DNA from: Opitutaceae bacterium
Lineage (GTDB): Bacteria; Verrucomicrobiota; Verrucomicrobiia; Opitutales; Opitutaceae
DNA length: 64,000 bases
Assembly: GCA_030648295.1 (NCBI GenBank)
Contig: JAUSID010000217.1
Span: 62,001 to 126,000, forward strand
Direction: 5' to 3'
This document shows positions 29,987 to 63,283 of the stretch, piece by piece. Numbering within the stretch: position 1 is the stretch's first letter; every line of letters begins with the position of its first letter. The notes beneath the pieces were generated by a model. It ran no database searches, was not told the origin of the DNA, and saw nothing but the letters and a program-made list of their open reading frames with translations. Made by a program: the position numbers and the translations under genes.

Positions 29987-30145
29987 AGTGACGAGCGACA
30001 ACGATCAGTGACGAGTGACAAGTGATGAGTGACGAGCTCAGGCATCCAAACCACCGGATGACTCGACCCGTCACTCGTCACTCTTCACTCATCACTGTCC
30101 GCGCATGGTCTCGTCTCGTCACTGGTCACTCGTCACTTATCACTC
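29987..30145. repeat. Inverted array of GTGACGAGTGA units, family D
   Basis: AGTGACGAG/AGTGACAAG/AGTGATGAG units at 29987-30036 are mirrored by CACTCGTCACT, CTTCACTCATCACT and TCACTCGTCACTTATCAC at 30069-30145. The two arms flank a 30-base centre and could form a long hairpin between dapB and ruvA. The repeat ends about 8 bases before the ruvA start, so it makes up most of its leader. Confidence 0.8.
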
Positions 30146-35535: not shown

Positions 35536-35663
35536 CCGGAAACCGTGGCGCATAACTGTGCCGCGCGCCAATCGGAAAAGGACTCCGCGCTGCGCGCGCG
35601 ACCGGCCGCCTCATCCGCAAGGGGTTTGCCGCATCGCGCGGGTGCCTGCCGCCTGGTTCGACC

Positions 35664-35756
35664 TGGGAGCGCGGGCGTCTCGCCCGCAATTCATATCCGG
35701 ATACCGACTCGGTTTTCGACGGTTGCGGTTGCGGGCGGGACGCCCGCGCTCCCGGG
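35664..35756. repeat. Inverted pair of family A palindromes
   Basis: CTGGGAGCGCGGGCGTCTCG with CCCGCAAT at 35664-35690 is mirrored by GCGGGCGGGACGCCCGCGCT with CCCGGG at 35730-35756. Each arm is itself palindromic and the two can pair across a 39-base centre. It separates the M20 and M48 peptidase genes. Confidence 0.8.
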
Positions 35757-38407: not shown

Positions 38408-38538
38408 AGACCAGGGACTAGGGACCAGAGACTAGAGACCACAGGTCCACCGCACGCGATGACAAGAACCGAATCGTGGGAAGTATTCTTCGCCGCCCGG
38501 CAGTCGTGTGGCCCTTTGTCCCTAGTCCCTGGTCCCTC
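38408..38538. repeat. Inverted repeat GGGACTAGGGACCAGAGACT, family E
   Basis: ACCAGGGACTAGGGACCAGA and AGACTAGAGACC at 38408-38441 are mirrored by GTCCCTAGTCCCTGGTCCCT at 38517-38538, with a 75-base centre. It lies between the divergent purH and apaG genes. Confidence 0.8.
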
Positions 38539-40389: not shown

Positions 40390-40797
40390 CACCCTGGGAG
40401 CGCGGGCGTCTCGCCCGCACCGCGTCGAAGCTGCCACCGCTGAGATTCGCCGCCGGAAATGGCGATTGGGCAGCAGCGCTCCACCGTGGCGGCTCTTATC
40501 GTTCTCGTTCTCTTTCTCTTAATCTTTCTCTTCGTCCTCGCCTGCCGCCGGCGCCGCGGCGGGAGAACGAGAACGATTACGAGAACGATTCAGGCGCAGT
40601 CGGCCGAGTTCACCTCCGCTGCTTGCGAGTGGCTGCGGCATCCTTGCCGCAGATCCTGTGGATGTACGGTCGCCGCTCACCAACTGCGGCTGGAAGCCGC
40701 AGCCACCTCCGATCCGATCGAAACGACGAGCTCCGTTCTCGTTCCTCATTCGAGAACGAACTGAATCGTATTTCCGCCCGATACGCTGCAGTTCCGG
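40390..40797. repeat. Gene-free stretch made of several palindromic repeats
   Basis: A family A palindrome lies at 40394-40419. TCGTTCTCGTTCTCTTTCTC-type text at 40500-40540 is mirrored by AGAACGAGAACGATTACGAG and AGAACGATTC at 40562-40590 and again by GTTCTCGTTCCTCATTCG and AGAACGAAC near 40734-40762. A family H arm GTGGCTGCGGC...GCCGCAG at 40628-40652 is mirrored at 40682-40708. No gene is seen here. Confidence 0.75.
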
Positions 40798-41610: not shown

Positions 41611-42029
41611 GATCGCCCGCGAATGGACGCGAATCGCCGCGAATGACCAATCAAAAACCGCTTAACCGCGAATGGACGCGAATGAACGCGAATCAAAACC
41701 AATCACGAGCGGCTGGAACACACAGATGAACTTTCCCCTTTGTCATGCTGAGCGTAGCGAAGCATCCAGTGGCGCGGCCGGTTGCGGGCGTGGTGCTGGA
41801 TTTTTCCCATGTGCTCGACTCAGGGTCAGAATGACAAACAACGACGTTCATTGGCAGCGAAGCGAAGGATCAGCAGCGCGTCCGCAGTCGTCCATCCGGT
41901 TGGATCCTTCACTTCGCTCAGGATGATACGCACCAACCTGAAAACGAATCGTGCCCTTCCTCCATTCGCGTTCATTCGCGTCCATTCGCGGTTAACCTCC
42001 GCGTCTTTTTCGCATCCCTTCGCGATTGC
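41611..42029. repeat. Gene-free stretch with repeat families B and G
   Basis: Family B copies lie at 41617-41645 and 41663-41694 (AACCGCGAATGGACGCGAAT type), with an inverted copy at 41963-41995 (ATTCGCGTCCATTCGCGGTT). Inside them, family G has TTGTCATGCTGAGCGTAGCG at 41740-41769 and the inverse TGGATCCTTCACTTCGCTCA with GGATGAT at 41901-41929. The nested order B-G-G'-B' makes the whole gap one large inverted structure. No gene is seen. Confidence 0.75.
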
Positions 42030-48157: not shown

Positions 48158-51115
48158 CTACTTCGGGCCCGCTTGCCGCCAGCGTTTCAATGCCTGGCCG
48201 GTCAGCGACGAGGCGCAGGCTTCGAGGTCCTTCCTCGTTCCCGCGAATATCAAATCGCCACCTTCTCGGCCGCCGCCGGGCCCGAGATCCACCACCCAGT
48301 CCGCCAGGTTGATGACGTCGAGGTTGTGCTCGATGATGATGACCGAGTTGCCGGCATCGCGCAGCTTGAACAGCAAATCCATCAGCTTCTGGATGTCCGT
48401 CCAGTGCAGCCCCGTCGTGGGCTCGTCGAGGATGTAGAGCGTTGAGCCTTGCTGCCGTTTGCTGAGCTCGAGTGACAGCTTGATCCGCTGCGCCTCGCCG
48501 CCCGAAAGCGTCGTGGCCGACTGGCCGAGCGTCAGGTAGCCGAGTCCGACGGCATCGAGCGTCTCGAGTTTGTCGATCACGCGGGGGATATTTCGAAAGA
48601 GCCGGATCGCCTCGCGCACCGTCATGTCGAGCACGTCGGCGATCGAGTGGCCGTGAAATTTGATCTCGAGTGTTTCGCGGTTGAACCGCCGTCCGGCGCA
48701 GCTCGGACACGGCGCGTACGCATCGGGCATGAACTGCATGTCGAGCTTGATCACGCCATCGCCCTGGCATCGCTCGCACCGGCCGCCGCGCACGTTGAAG
48801 GAGAACCGGCTCGCCTTGTAGCCGCGGACTTTCGCGAGCGGCACCTGGGCATACAAGTCGCGCAGCATCGGCAGCAGGTCGACGTAGCTCGCCGGATTCG
48901 AGCGCGGGCTGCGGCCGATCGGCTCCTGGTCCACCTGCACCAGCTTCTCGAAGAAATCCAGATTCTCGATCTGCCGGTGCGCAGCCGGAATCGACTTCGC
49001 GCCATTGAGCTTGCGCGCGGCCTGCGCCGCCAGGATGTCGAGCACGAGCGTGCTCTTGCCCGAGCCGCTGACACCGGTGACGCATGTGAGCAGCCCGAGC
49101 GGAAACCGCACATCGATCCCGCGCAGGTTGTTCGCCCGGGCTTCGCGCACCGTCAGCCAGGCGCCGTCCGTCTCCTTCAGTTTCGCATCGCGAATCACGC
49201 CGAGCTTGCGCGCGAGGTACGGTCCCGTGCGCGAGACTTTCGCCGGCAGCTGCATGCAGGCCGCGGGCGGACCTTGAAACAACAGCTGCCCGCCCTCGAT
49301 CCCCGCTTCGGGGCCCAGTTCGATCAATTCGTCCGCGACGCGCATCGTGTCCTCGTCGTGCTCGACCACGATGACGGTGTTGCCGCGATCGCGCAGCGCG
49401 AGGACGGTGTCGAGCAGCTTCTGGTTGTCGTGCGGATGCAGTCCGATGCTCGGCTCATCGAGAACGTAAATCACGCCGACGAGCCCCATCCCGAGCTGGG
49501 TCGCCAGCCGAACGCGCTGCGACTCACCGCCGGACAGCGTGCCGTAATCACGCTCGAGCGTCAGGTAACCAAGACCCGTCTCAAGCAGGAAGTGCAGTCG
49601 TTGCTCAATCCCCGTCACGACATCGCACACCGCGTCGGTCGCGCCGTGCACGGCGACGAGTTCACGCGCGAACGAGTGCGCCTCGCCAATGTCGAATGCC
49701 ATGAATTGGGGAAAGGTGATCGACTGCGGATTTCGGATTTCGGATTTCGGATTCTCGGCAACCGACCCAGCCGGCGACAGCGATGGCTCGTCCAATCCGC
49801 AATCCGAAATCCGCAATCCGCAATTTACCCGGACGGCGCCGCTGCGCGCGTTGAGCCGCGTGCCGTGGCATTCCGGGCACTCGCCGCTGATCATGAACGT
49901 CGTGAGCCGCGCCCGGAATCCCTCGCTGTCGGTGTGACGAAAACTCTCCTCGAGATCGCCGATAATCCCGGCAAACGACATCGCCTTGGGTTCGCGCATG
50001 CGTCGCAACTTAAACGCGAATTGCCGCTCCCCGGCGCCGCGCAACAGAATCTCGCGCGTTTCCGCCGGAAGCTTTTTCCACGGCGTGTCCGGATCGAACG
50101 GCAGCTGCTCCGCCAGCTGCTTCAGCATCGCATTATGTTTGATGATCAGATTTTTTCCGCCGATCCGCCACGGTTTGATGGCGCCCTCGCGCACCGATTT
50201 GTCCGGATCCGCCACGATCAGTTCGGGCACGAAGCGCAGCTTGCGGCCGAGCCCGTCGCACGTGGGACACGCGCCCTCGCGGTGATTGAACGAGAAATGC
50301 CGCGGCGTGAGTTTCTCGAACACGTCACCACAAACTTCACACGCCAGCGACTGGCTCAGCGCGATCTCGCGCCACGGGGCCTCGGCGGATTTCTGCGTCA
50401 GCACCATGGCGCGGTCGCGGCCTTCGCGAAACGCCAGTTCGAGCGAGTCGGCGATTCGGCTTCGCTGGTCCAGTGTCGCCACCAGCCGGTCCACGACCAG
50501 GTCAACCGCCACCTCCTTCGTGCCGGTGGGCAGGTCTCGCGTATCGTCGAGCGATTTGATCTCCCCATCGAGCCGCACGCGCTGGAAGCCGCGTTGCCGC
50601 AGCCGCGGCAGCTCCTCGCGCAGCACGCTCGGCTTCGCCGCCAGCAGGGGCGCAAGCAGCATGATCCGCTCGCCCACGCATTCGGCGAGGACACGTTGCA
50701 CATTGTCGTCGAGCGAGCGCTGCACCACGCGGCCTCCGTCCTTCGGGCAATGCGGCTGGCCGATCAATGCCCAGAGCAGCTGCGCGTAGTCGGCAATCTC
50801 GGTCGCGGTGGCAATCGTGCTGCGCGGTCCGCCCCCGCCGGTGCGCTGCTCGATCGCGAGGACGGGTGAAAGCCCGTGGATGAAATCGACGTCGGGCCGC
50901 TTGAGTTGGTCGAGCACCTGGCGCGCCTGCGTGCTGAGCGACTCGATGTACTTCCGGTAGCCCTCGGCGTAGATGGTGTCGAACGCGAGCGACGATTTGC
51001 CCGAACCGCTCGGACCGGTGATCACGACGAGCTTCCCGCGCGGAATCCGGAGCTCGAGGTTCTTCAGGTTATGCTCCCGCGCACCTTTGATGTGAATATG
51101 GGTGGCGGGATGCAT
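48158..51115 (-). CDS. uvrA: Excinuclease ABC subunit A (with in-frame palindromic insert)
   Basis: A 985-residue damage-recognition ATPase of nucleotide excision repair. The first ABC unit has [17 protein letters not shown] (residues 31-47), with zinc knuckle CEVC...CPTC and signature [15 protein letters not shown]. The second has [24 protein letters not shown]...CPSC and [15 protein letters not shown]. Residues 431-465 (bases 49721-49825) are an insert starting [11 protein letters not shown] and ending SEIRNPQS. It sits between [13 protein letters not shown] and [14 protein letters not shown], where homologues have no such text. That brings the protein to 985 residues against a usual 940-950. 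Start ATG51115 matches the family; the frame runs 70 codons further upstream. Confidence 0.97.
49721..49825. repeat. Palindromic element, family C, inside uvrA
   Basis: The left arm has GCGGATTTCGGATTTCGGAT repeats (49724-49753) and the right arm AATCCGCAATCCGAAATCCG with further copies (49794-49824). A 40-base centre lies between them. It is translated in frame as part of UvrA. A second copy lies at 63022-63090 inside the exonuclease-ligase gene and is read in the same frame. Confidence 0.9.
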
Positions 51116-51330
51116 TGGTCGAACACGCAACTTTGCGCAAAAGCACTGCACGTCAAAGCCGGATACACGCACGAACGCGGAGCGTGTCGTCCAATTCGCT
51201 CTTGCGCCGGAAGGTTCCGCGTCGTTTCTGTTGCGGCCAGTTTCAACCTGCCACGTCGAAACCCTGAACCTGACTCGAGTTTCCCGCCGCGGGAGAAATC
51301 CGCCGGGGCACCCCTCATCGCGCAATCTTC

Positions 51331-55617: not shown

Positions 55618-55629
55618 GCGCCTGCCACC

Positions 55630-55693
55630 GGGGAGCGCGGGCGTCCCGCCCGCAACCGCTCGGAGCGGGCCGGAGGCCTGCGCTCCCGGGAAA
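55630..55693. repeat. Family A palindromes inside the envelope cluster
   Basis: GGGAGCGCGGGCGTCCCGCC with CGCAA at 55630-55655 is followed by an inverted partial copy (GGCCTGCGCTCCCGGGAA) ending near 55693. The pair separates the Ycf48-like and RND genes. Confidence 0.7.
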
Positions 55694-58123: not shown

Positions 58124-58504
58124 CTGTACTCATCCAATTCAACCGCGAATGGACACGAATCGACACGAATGAATACCAAGCCAGGCCGAGGATTTTAGAC
58201 CACGCACTGCATGGTGGGCTGCAATCGCAACTGCGGATTTCCTCCCTTCCCCTGAAATTGGCGTTCATTCGCGTCCATTCGCGGTTCCTCTTCTGGTCGG
58301 CTGCCTCCGTGGCACCCGCGCTTTGCCGGTGAGGCAAAGCCGCCCCACTGCCTCCCTCCCTTTGATTTCCGAAAGATAAGCGAAGATTAGCGGCTAAAAA
58401 AAACTCCTTTGCTCCGGCCCCGCCGGCCGGATGCCGCCGCGCAAAAACACTGGCGTCCGCCCCCTGGCCGCGTTTTTGTCGGGGCGACTGTCCTTCATTT
58501 CATC
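58124..58504. repeat. Intergenic region with an inverted pair of family B repeats
   Basis: AACCGCGAATGGACACGAAT with CGACACGAATGAA at 58141-58173 is mirrored by GCGTTCATTCGCGTCCATTC with GCGGTT at 58260-58286, with an 86-base centre. No gene is seen in the remaining bases to the AI-2E-family start. Confidence 0.75.
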
Positions 58505-59665: not shown

Positions 59666-59775
59666 TTAACCGCGAATAGACGCGAATCGACGCGAATGAA
59701 GAGATCCTATCGGGAACGCGGGATCCCTTCGCCTGCCTTTCAAATTCGCGTCTATTCGCGTTCATTCGCGGTTCT
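59666..59775. repeat. Inverted pair of family B repeats
   Basis: AACCGCGAATAGACGCGAAT with CGACGCGAATGAA at 59666-59701 is mirrored by AATTCGCGTCTATTCGCGTT with CATTCGCGGTT at 59742-59775. The centre is 40 bases. It directly precedes the zinc-ribbon gene at 59790. Confidence 0.8.
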
Positions 59776-60817: not shown

Positions 60818-60847
60818 TTGCGGGCGAGGACGACCGCGCTCCCGGGA
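60818..60847. repeat. Degenerate family A palindrome
   Basis: TGCGGGCGAGGACGACCGCG with CTCCCGGGAA resembles the family A element with a few changes. It lies between vapC and the exonuclease-ligase gene. Confidence 0.55.
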
Positions 60848-60901
60848 ATTTCTCCTGCCCGCTTGAGCTTCGGGCACATCGTCCAATGCTTCTCGTTTCC
60901 C

Positions 60902-63283
60902 ATGGCCTGGCAGGTCGAATTTCGCGCGGGGGTCTGGCTGCCTCAAATCGAGTGGTGGCTCGACGCGCATTTTCCCGTGGCGCGGTCGTTTGTGTCGCAC
61001 GCCCATTCCGATCACATCGCGCCGCATGGCGAAATCCTCTGCTCGGCCGGAACTTCGCGGCTGATGCGCGCCCGGATGGGCGGCGAGCGGATCGAGCACG
61101 TGCTGCCATTCGGTCAAACCGAGCGGCTCACGGTCGATAGCGCGATCACGCTTCACCCGGCGGGACACATCTTCGGTTCGGCCCAGAGCCTCCTCGCGCA
61201 CGAGGCGCACGGCACGCTGCTGTACACCGGTGATTTCAAGCTGCGGCCGGGCCGTTCGTCCGAAGTCTGTGCCACCCCGCGCGCTGATGTGCTCATCATG
61301 GAGACGACGTTCGGCCGGCCCCATTATGTGTTCCCGCCGACCGAGCAGGTGCTCCGTGACATCGCGGGTTTCTGCCACTCGGCGCTCGACGACGGCGAAA
61401 CGCCCGTACTTTTCGGATACAGCCTGGGCAAGAGCCAGGAACTGCTGTGCGGGCTGGCGGACGCGAAGCTGCCGGTGATGCTGCATCCGCAGACGTTTCG
61501 ATTGACGAGAATCTACGAGACGCTCGGCATCGGGTTTCCCGATTACCGCGACTTCTCCGCCGCCGAGGTCGCCGGCCACGTGGTGATTTGTCCGCCGCAG
61601 GCGAACAACTCCAGCTTCCTGCGCCAGATCACGAAGCGGCGCACGGCCGTCGTTACCGGCTGGGCGATGGATCCCGGGGTGATCTACCGGTATCAATGCG
61701 ATGCCGCGTTTCCACTTTCCGACCACGCCGACTTCCCCGACCTGCTGCGGTTCGTCGAAGCGGTGCAACCGACGCGCGTGCTCACGCTGCATGGGTTCGC
61801 GCAGGAGTTCGCGCAAACCCTTCGCGCGCGCGGGCTGGAGGCGTGGGCGATCGGCGAGGACAACCAGCTCGAGCTGGGCATCGCGAGTCGCGGCGGTGTT
61901 GTGCCTGTCGCCGTCGCGGAGGGCGCGCGAAATGCCTGCGCCACTCCCAACGCACCGTCGAATTGCTTCTCGCGGTTTGCGGACGTCGCCGAACAGGTCA
62001 AAGCGACACCGAAGAAGCTCGGGAAAATCGAACTGCTCCGCACCTACCTCGCCGAACTCTCGGCCGACGACGCCGCACTCGCGGCGCTGTACTTCACCGC
62101 GCGTCCGTTTCCGCAATCGGCGAATCTCGTCCTCACCATGGGCTGGGCCGTGATCAAGCGCGCGGTGCTCGACGTCGCCGGGATGACCGAAGCGGATTAT
62201 CGCGCCGCGTATCACCGTTTCGAGGACGCGGGTGATGCGGCCGAGGCACTCCTGGGCGGCCGCACGCCATCGGCCGGGACGACGCTCGCGGCAATCGCGT
62301 CGTTTTTTGCCCGCATCGCGGCTGCACGCGGTCCCGTGGCCAAGCTTGATCTCCTCCAGGCCCAGCTGGCGCAGCTCTCCGCGCCGGAGGCGAAGTACCT
62401 GGTGAAAATCGTCACCGGCGATCTGCGGATCGGTCTGAAGGAGGGCCTGGTCGAGGAAGCGATCGCCGCGGCCTCGGGCCAGCCGCTCGAGCGGGTCCGC
62501 GAAGCCAATATGCTTTCCGGCGACATCGCGGACGTCACGCGGGCCGCACGCAACAACAGCCTGGATGCGATCCAGCTGCACGTGTTCAACCCGCTCCAGT
62601 TCATGCTCGCCAGTCCCGAGCCCAGCGCGGAGTCGATCCTCGAGCGGCTGACGCCGCCCGTGTGGCTGGAGGAGAAATACGATGGGATTCGCTGCCAGCT
62701 GCACAAACAGGGCGAACGAATCGAGCTCTACTCGCGCGACCTGAAGCGAATCACCGGACAGTTTCCGGACCTCGTTCGCGCCGCCGCTTCGCTTCCCGGC
62801 GATTTGATCGGCGATGGCGAACTGCTCGCCTGGCGCGAAGGCCGGGCGCTGCCGTTCTCTGAATTGCAGAAACGGCTCGGTCGGAAGGGCGACGACTTCT
62901 TTCTCGGCGCCGAGATTCCGGTTTCGATTTCGTTCTACGACCTGCTCTGGCTCAACGGCCGTCCGCTGCTGAAGGAACCGCTCACGACTCGCCGCGCGCT
63001 CCTCGCCAGGCTCCTCGGGGCAGATTTCGGATTGCGAATTGCAGATCGCGGATTGCCCAATCGCCAATCCGAAATCCGAAATCCGAAATTCCTCCTCGCC
63101 CCCGTGCAGCACGCTGAAACCGCCGCCGACATTGAAGCCGCCTTCATGGCGGCGCGTAACCGGGGAAACGAGGGGCTGATGGCCAAGGATCCGAACAGCA
63201 TTTACACGCCGGGCCGGCGCGGGCTGGCGTGGTTGAAACTGAAGAAAGCCTACGCCACCGTCCCGCGGGCGGCAGCGTCGTGA
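60902..63283 (+). CDS. Fused DNA exonuclease and ATP-dependent DNA ligase lacking the OB domain
   Basis: The 793-residue product combines two usually separate proteins. The N-terminal 340 residues are a ligase-associated beta-CASP exonuclease: SFVSHAHSDHIAPHGEI, PAGHIFGSAQSLL, YTGDFKLRPG and PLSDHADFPDLLRFV. Residues about 385-780 are a LigB-type ligase. It has an N-terminal DNA-binding region (ELLRTYLAELSADDAALAAL) and a nucleotidyltransferase domain with motif I EEKYDGIRCQLH, motif III DGELLAW, motif IV EGLMAKDP and motif V WLKLKKAY. The protein then ends 8 residues later (ATVPRAAAS). The C-terminal OB domain of about 130 residues, with motif VI, is missing. Residues 708-730 are a palindromic insert. 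The start at 60902 matches the family. Confidence 0.9.
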   Translation: MAWQVEFRAGVWLPQIEWWLDAHFPVARSFVSHAHSDHIAPHGEILCSAGTSRLMRARMGGERIEHVLPFGQTERLTVDSAITLHPAGHIFGSAQSLLAHEAHGTLLYTGDFKLRPGRSSEVCATPRADVLIMETTFGRPHYVFPPTEQVLRDIAGFCHSALDDGETPVLFGYSLGKSQELLCGLADAKLPVMLHPQTFRLTRIYETLGIGFPDYRDFSAAEVAGHVVICPPQANNSSFLRQITKRRTAVVTGWAMDPGVIYRYQCDAAFPLSDHADFPDLLRFVEAVQPTRVLTLHGFAQEFAQTLRARGLEAWAIGEDNQLELGIASRGGVVPVAVAEGARNACATPNAPSNCFSRFADVAEQVKATPKKLGKIELLRTYLAELSADDAALAALYFTARPFPQSANLVLTMGWAVIKRAVLDVAGMTEADYRAAYHRFEDAGDAAEALLGGRTPSAGTTLAAIASFFARIAAARGPVAKLDLLQAQLAQLSAPEAKYLVKIVTGDLRIGLKEGLVEEAIAAASGQPLERVREANMLSGDIADVTRAARNNSLDAIQLHVFNPLQFMLASPEPSAESILERLTPPVWLEEKYDGIRCQLHKQGERIELYSRDLKRITGQFPDLVRAAASLPGDLIGDGELLAWREGRALPFSELQKRLGRKGDDFFLGAEIPVSISFYDLLWLNGRPLLKEPLTTRRALLARLLGADFGLRIADRGLPNRQSEIRNPKFLLAPVQHAETAADIEAAFMAARNRGNEGLMAKDPNSIYTPGRRGLAWLKLKKAYATVPRAAAS
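63022..63090. repeat. Palindromic element, family C, inside the exonuclease-ligase gene
   Basis: AGATTTCGGATTGCGAATTG with CAGATCGCGGATTG pairs imperfectly with CAATCGCCAATCCGAAATCC with GAAATCCGAAATT. It is read in frame as DFGLRIADRGL, PNRQ, SEIRNPKF. The UvrA copy reads the same way. Confidence 0.9.

Follow-up and report, generated by a model that had tools for sequence, protein, structure and literature searches.

How does a palindromic DNA element come to lie inside two unrelated genes without breaking the reading frame of either? The question arises in a 64,000-nt stretch of DNA from an uncultured Opitutaceae bacterium (here, the window), in which an initial annotation had described a palindromic family inserted in frame both in uvrA and in a gene encoding an exonuclease-ligase. 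We found that both elements consist of inverted arms of one 7-nt repeat, and that both host frames run through them without a stop codon (Table 1). The uvrA arms are 93% complementary with 39-40 nt between them, and their centre had no match to another centre in the best 60 pairs listed from the 90 centres compared. This element occupies a loop between RSGAVRV and TFPQFM, where in-frame inserts vary in relatives. The arms in the ligase gene are separated by 1 nt, and translation across them gives LLGA-DFGLRIADRGL-PNRQ-SEIRNPKF-LLAP. For the uvrA element, RNA folding z-scores on the two strands were -4.9 and -6.6; the ligase element scored -1.9 and -3.7, and the weakest fold of the four, that of the ligase coding strand, was equalled by 11 of 200 shuffles. 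An Rfam scan of window positions 49400-50100 matched nothing, and an AlphaFold model of UvrA was set aside because its mean pLDDT was 41.

Table 1. Repeat elements and host genes in the window, by position in the 64,000-nt stretch
Feature	Position	Strand	Remarks
uvrA host gene	48158..51118	-	start codon picked by the analyst
uvrA element, left arm	49725..49753	+	TGCGGATT(TCGGATT)3; coding strand (minus) reads SEIRNPQ
uvrA element, centre	49754..49792	.	39 nt
uvrA element, right arm	49793..49824	-	RATT(KCGGATT)4G on minus strand
Ligase-associated exonuclease fused to ATP-dependent DNA ligase	60818..63283	+	host of the second element
Ligase element, left arm	63023..63056	+	reads ADFGLRIADRGL
Ligase element, right arm	63058..63089	-	reads SEIRNPKF on coding strand
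7-mer paired-arm element, AGTGACG units	30003..30141	.	
7-mer paired-arm element, AGRGACY units	38409..38534	.	
10-mer (CGCGAATGRA) element	41662..41995	.	32-nt arms with 100% complementarity, gap 270 nt
10-mer (CGCGAATGRA) element	58141..58286	.	centre 83 nt
10-mer (CGCGAATGRA) element	59668..59773	.	arms 30 nt
Third palindromic family, GGGAGCGCGGGCGTC	35662-35756		
Third palindromic family, GGGAGCGCGGGCGTC	40393-40431		
Third palindromic family, GGGAGCGCGGGCGTC	55628-55693		

The window belongs to an Opitutaceae genome of 9.12 Mb in 294 contigs. A genome-wide search for the arm sequence, which the initial annotation had called for, revealed a dispersed family: the 14-mer arm pattern GCGGATTKCGGATT had 169 exact matches and TTCGGATTTCGGATT had 81, with 0 for the control in each case. 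Together with the arms and the stop-free frames, these counts bear out the proposal of a palindromic family present in both genes. From the listed places we took 74 stretches (452,822 nt); for the 14-mer these places were the first 100 of the 169, so some copies lie outside the set. The stretches contain 179 arms in 109 clusters, and the reversed sequence contains 0 arms. A typical arm is ~33 nt, RATT(KCGGATT)4G, or ~4.5 heptamers. Among the 127 arms with a score of at least 18, the modal length is 32 nt (30 arms), and 71 measure 29-34 nt. In 60 stretches from six relatives (75 clusters), the mode is likewise 32 nt (24 of 101 arms), with 79 of 101 at 29-34 nt. The outer ends are anchored on ATT, preceded by a purine at 120 of 131 ends in the genome's own stretches and 85 of 95 in relatives; these 131 and 95 ends have no GTAG or CGTC consensus. 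The 14-mer is patchy, being present in 17 of 56 relatives (the window's genome not counted), and in a sample of 287 others from the phylum a 22-mer was present in 9 genomes.

Opposed neighbouring arms face one way. The genome's own stretches contain 36 '+-' pairs and 0 '-+' pairs (window elements counted once), and the relatives contain 34 and 1. Many single and same-direction arms exist besides these inverted dimers, and same-direction neighbours are frequent in the genome's own stretches ('--' 18, '++' 16; 2 and 3 in relatives). The KCGGATT centres gave few matches to one another among the best 60 pairs listed, some of them between orthologues, and the MITE arrangement, in which terminal inverted repeats carry a conserved centre, was not found in KCGGATT elements. 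Copy number within arrays varies, as in a 106-nt heptamer array at locus L068. The four GG of each 4.5 units had suggested G-quadruplexes; we dropped this reading because two families built on the same plan, AGTGACG and CGCGAATGRA, have no GG ladder.

We determined where the copies lie. A strong arm is present in 85 clusters; 12 of them sit in frame within coding sequence, in 11 genes, and 73 are not read through in any coding frame, a distribution that does not support the suggestion of mobility targeting genes. Using gene calls from a codon model trained on the very sequence analysed, we found coding signal on neither side of 41 clusters and on one side of 26; two have genes on opposite strands to either side and one lies at an edge. 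With hosts excluded, the flanking gene ends were 3′ on 72 and 5′ on 28 of 146 sides in the genome's own stretches, and 3′ on 53 and 5′ on 30 of 100 sides in relatives, the remainder being undecided. A stop codon lies no more than 10 nt from the edge of the element at 29 of the 72 and 30 of the 53 flanking 3′ ends, respectively. The copies outside coding frames thus seem to be mostly intergenic, often next to a stop codon. Copies in random frames that disrupt genes would have spoken against the annotation. Six same-strand elements were indeed scored as such, four out of phase and two containing stops, and all six start 1-7 nt past the upstream stop codon.

The initial annotation had taken the frame shared by uvrA and the ligase gene as a sign of selection for stop-free reading. 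However, each strand of (KCGGATT)n encodes a single residue cycle in all three frames, either ADCGLRI or NPQSAIR, since a 7-nt unit moves the phase by one base per repeat. None of 384 tested frames contains a stop, and of the 16384 possible heptamers, 8264 (half) likewise yield no stop in six frames on repetition. The shared reading is therefore expected, being forced by the 7-nt period, and does not support the proposed selection; what selection must preserve is the total length.

The in-frame hosts are PolX, UvrA, the exonuclease-ligase, MutL, HrpA, MnmA, GlnRS, a U32/TrhP-like protein, SucB, an exosortase (twice), and one protein with no Pfam match. Four of the 11 genes (UvrA, ligase, MutL, and PolX) function in DNA repair, giving P between 5e-5 and 1.6e-3 if repair genes are assumed to make up 2-5% of genes. 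The repair bias, which the initial annotation had put down as perhaps chance, may thus exceed chance, with the caveat that the background fraction is an assumption. Among the hosts in relatives, MutL alone is plainly a repair gene. In the relatives, 14 of 23 candidate in-gene rows were retained after inspection by eye. Rejected rows were L244 (two rows), which contains HEIRNPL, presumably the native motif of a histidine kinase; L247, a 14-nt match; L200 (two rows), low-complexity sequence; L201:+ and L231:-, antisense readings; and L211 and L229:7521, which have no Pfam support. L234, outside these 23 rows, was set aside on the same grounds as L244. Where arms of a single direction lie in genes, all 11 cases judged real read NPQSAIR; two of these 11 cases lack both a Pfam family and an ortholog with a known function, and in one the Pfam match falls below threshold.

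Next to these hosts, the UvrA loop could be followed across loci from Opitutaceae and related Verrucomicrobiota bins, 25 of 29 being readable over the loop. It measures 6 residues in 12 of the 25 orthologues and 13-46 in the other 13, always in frame, and a solved UvrA structure has 8 residues where the window UvrA has 41. These lengths agree with the annotation's statement that UvrA homologues lack the insert; the two host proteins are indeed unrelated, as it had said. Across the window gene and four of the 25 orthologues, the loop contains at least four types of palindrome, all in frame. L031 and L043 carry GTAG-type units and L042 carries a perfect 25-bp GTAG-type hairpin (all judged by eye), while L057 carries CCGGAAA-type heptamer arms, which are also present in G006. 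The other nine long loops contain no clear palindrome.

A different arrangement occurs in the U32/TrhP-like and RlmD-like genes (L093, L213, and L214), where the two inverted arms occupy separate loops that bracket a conserved block of native protein. For each gene, a motif search read these loops in 6 of the 27 loci. As the arms flank native protein, one insertion does not account for them, and we rejected a single palindrome with a variable centre for both genes. We also rejected clean insertion of the left arms, as the loops are no longer than in arm-free relatives (20 residues versus 21 in U32, 15 versus 15 in RlmD). Six pairs of orthologous genes have arms in matching loops; their third positions of the four-fold type are no more than 46-55% identical, and the arms are still recognisable heptamers, near-perfect in most pairs and partly degraded in U32. 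Either the same loops were hit repeatedly or the arms were renewed.

We compared slots between the sister genomes G006 and G008 on ten pairs of orthologous stretches that total 379,420 nt and were picked because one side carried a heptamer element; most are 84-93% identical. A search for inverted repeats (score at least 16, span at most 320 nt) found 35, of which 29 could be mapped and 6 could not. Merging reciprocal rows by eye left 19 slots, one of them in a plain coding repeat. When the remaining 18 were classified by eye, 11 contained the same family in both genomes, five were swapped, two were ambiguous (one within a called gene), and none was empty. At a swapped slot an unrelated paired-arm element occupies the same place, with partner arms scoring 12-24, flanks 90-97% identical, and overlap with a called gene never above 35%. 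The heptamer family was exchanged against ACAGAG, CCGGARA, and AAGGGACC units; the swaps not involving it were GTAGCGA against GCGAAG and GAAGACGCG against GGTAAGC. One G006 heptamer element lies directly past an upstream stop codon, where G008 has a AACCACAGAGACACAGAG pair; a AAGGGACC pair occupies another G006 heptamer place in G008, and a heptamer place of G008 contains a GGGAAAGC pair in G006.

Below the score cut-off, weaker repeats included one additional (sixth) swap and two near-empty sites. Strong inverted repeats occur in 15 of 98 G006 spacers, and 4 of 55 element-free mapped spacers are longer in G008 by at least 40 nt. These spacers and the near-empty sites indicate that one-sided gains do occur. 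Were empty spacers filled independently, however, one-sided cases should outnumber shared ones. Between G006 and G008 we found no clean empty site for the KCGGATT family and could demonstrate no target-site duplication. Copy number also differs between the two genomes: within an otherwise shared CCGGAAA element (L386 14908-15067, L387 15096-15191), a GGAGTTC array is expanded to 86 nt in G006, where G008 has a gap of 17 nt.

Several unrelated families follow one plan, consisting of two inverted ~30-nt arms built of 7-, 8-, or 10-nt units with a gap of usually 25-200 nt. An arbitrary sample of 464,000 nt, made up of the window and 20 stretches of 20 kb each, contained 54 inverted repeats, compared to 1 in one window-wise shuffle; the arms of 11 have a period of 7, 8, or 10, and those of 40 have no clear period. 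Opposed arms of the CGCGAATGRA 10-mer family number 23:0 in the analysed stretches, and 11 of its 22 copies have a common centre of ~85 nt, part of which recurs in a twelfth. The 8-mer family AAGGGACY has a topology of 7:0, and CCGGAWA is looser, at 6:3 here and 10:0 in relatives. As families, AGRGACY was no more frequent than its control (16 arms versus 16 in reversed sequence) and AGRKCAG was not clearly above chance (18 arms versus 10 in the control, topology 2:1). Elsewhere in the genome there are 12 composite places, and in many of them the third palindromic family of the window adjoins heptamer arms. In the composite repeat beside GGGAGCGCGGGCG, there is no empty site: a heptamer arm is present in 12 of 14 places, and the other two are chance matches.

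The family's kind had been thought undescribed in such organisms, which was too strong. Palindromes in Opitutus uvrA and ligase genes have been known since 2013: double GTAG REPs, members of other families, were reported in both Opitutus terrae uvrA genes and a REP inside an O. terrae DNA ligase gene, with repair genes noted among the hosts (Di Nocera et al., 2013; PMC3733652). The apparent novelty lies in the ladder architecture, with units of 7, 8, or 10 nt, and in its turnover. As a precedent for replacement, the P6b stem of the Nostoc trnL intron comes nearest: its complementary arms are built of 7-nt repeats (TDNGATT and NNTGAGT), and one class repeatedly replaced another at one site (PMC4476775). 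The heptamer elements likewise have complementary 7-nt-repeat arms replaced as a class, a likeness in how they work. In contrast to that single cyanobacterial RNA locus, they involve many sites, protein genes, and several unit lengths. Dispersed 7-nt tandem repeats are also found in Beggiatoaceae (TAACTGA, described as direct repeats; PMC4679880) and in Xanthomonas and Nostoc (a heptameric G-rich repeat described as quadruplex-forming; PMC4692102); inverted pairs or in-frame inserts are not part of these descriptions in the available text of the two papers. Among the matches listed from the open-licence literature, none describes the heptamer sequence, and none reports ladder-armed palindromes for Verrucomicrobiota.

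A model that accommodates the observed anatomy, dispersal, one opposed-arm topology, stop-codon adjacency, in-frame reading, and slots differing in occupant family is that the inserts are a REP-like palindromic repeat with heptamer-ladder arms, whose slots persist while their occupants turn over (probability roughly 0.6). Elements would sit where hairpins do little harm: mostly between genes, often past stop codons, and sometimes in loops or linkers within genes. A slot would persist while its occupant is replaced as one unit. Within genes, the survivors would be copies whose net length preserves the frame, a condition that would be easy to satisfy with a 7-nt unit that contains no stop in any frame. 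In the most conjectural step, elements may spread as single-stranded hairpins during replication with the help of a nuclease acting in trans, a route that has been proposed for REPs. Against this model stand the failure to find a transposase or a target-site duplication, the native centres of U32 and RlmD with left loops of ordinary length, the partly degraded U32 arms, the common same-direction neighbours, the looser CCGGAWA family, the one-sided gains, the 6 of 35 unmapped repeats, and the assignment of slot classes by eye. A bolder version is that Opitutaceae genomes keep stable hairpin slots, past stop codons and in protein loops, at which several unrelated ladder-armed families are exchanged whole, arms and centre together, leaving the flanks undisturbed; we put this forward tentatively, as possible but somewhat less than an even bet.

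An ordinary REP family mobilised by a resident RAYT, a Y1 HUH transposase, would share many of these habits. GTAG/CGTC REPs are also dispersed, with paired inverted units near gene 3′ ends and stop codons, in-gene copies that encode residues, and repair genes among the hosts, including Opitutus uvrA and DNA ligase (PMC3733652). The genome contains eleven Y1_Tnp matches, and the UvrA loops of L031, L042, and L043 hold the palindromes judged to be of GTAG type. However, the heptamer elements differ from REPs as described there: their arm ends lack the unpaired GTAG or CGTC tag, the stem is a ladder of ~33-nt arms rather than a stem of 5-13 bp, and unrelated families swap at one slot. Nor was a linked RAYT found, as none of the 11 Y1_Tnp loci is flanked by paired heptamer arms (genome matches; flanks of ~1.5 kb or less). 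L144 has one lone 14-nt match, upstream of and outside the gene, and the Y1_Tnp genes of L143 and L144 are flanked instead by TAAGGGACAGGTCAA-type inverted repeats, to which the 8-mer family AAGGGACY may be related. No mobilising enzyme could be tied to the heptamer family. We regard the RAYT explanation as unlikely. The whole-unit swaps in place, with intact flanks, would also fit a hairpin nuclease that opens an extruded element, followed by end joining that inserts a hairpin fragment freed elsewhere. A Ku gene (L392) is present in the window's genome (G000), but Ku had no match in G006, G008, or G017 (85, 97, and 85% complete). Classical end joining is thus an unlikely cause of the swaps there and seems unneeded where they occur, making this route quite improbable.

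Two further explanations invoke the repeat unit itself. If the arms were Rickettsia RPE-like coding elements, with selection keeping the peptide, the recurrence of the NPQSAIR/ADCGLRI cycle and the uniform NPQSAIR reading of single-direction in-gene arms would be natural, and Rickettsia palindromic elements do lie in frame within unrelated genes (PMC10969869). Yet the cycle follows from a 7-nt unit in any frame, 73 of the 85 clusters lie outside coding-frame reading, and the UvrA loop accepts unrelated peptides in relatives. RPEs, as that source describes them, are ~150 bp long with a conserved peptide, whereas the residue cycle of the heptamer arms is explained by their 7-nt period and the majority of copies seem to lie between genes. 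We consider selection for the peptide very improbable. Slippage in place, with the inverted arrangement secondary, could explain changes in copy number such as the L068 array and the GGAGTTC array that differs between G006 and G008. It does not explain one heptamer at ~100 places, a 32-nt mode, and 70 of 71 opposed arm pairs facing one way, which together make independent slippage impossible as the source; we give this explanation hardly any credence.

On these findings, in-frame palindromes in repair genes are not peculiar to Rickettsia or to tagged REPs, and the 7-nt period offers a simple reason why in-gene palindromes built of heptamers are tolerated. If elements really are exchanged at slots, repeats would be turning over in a way not predicted by ordinary transposition. 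In the bolder version, a general process of hairpin exchange, rather than transposons specific to each family, would then drive both the turnover of intergenic DNA and the growth of protein loops.
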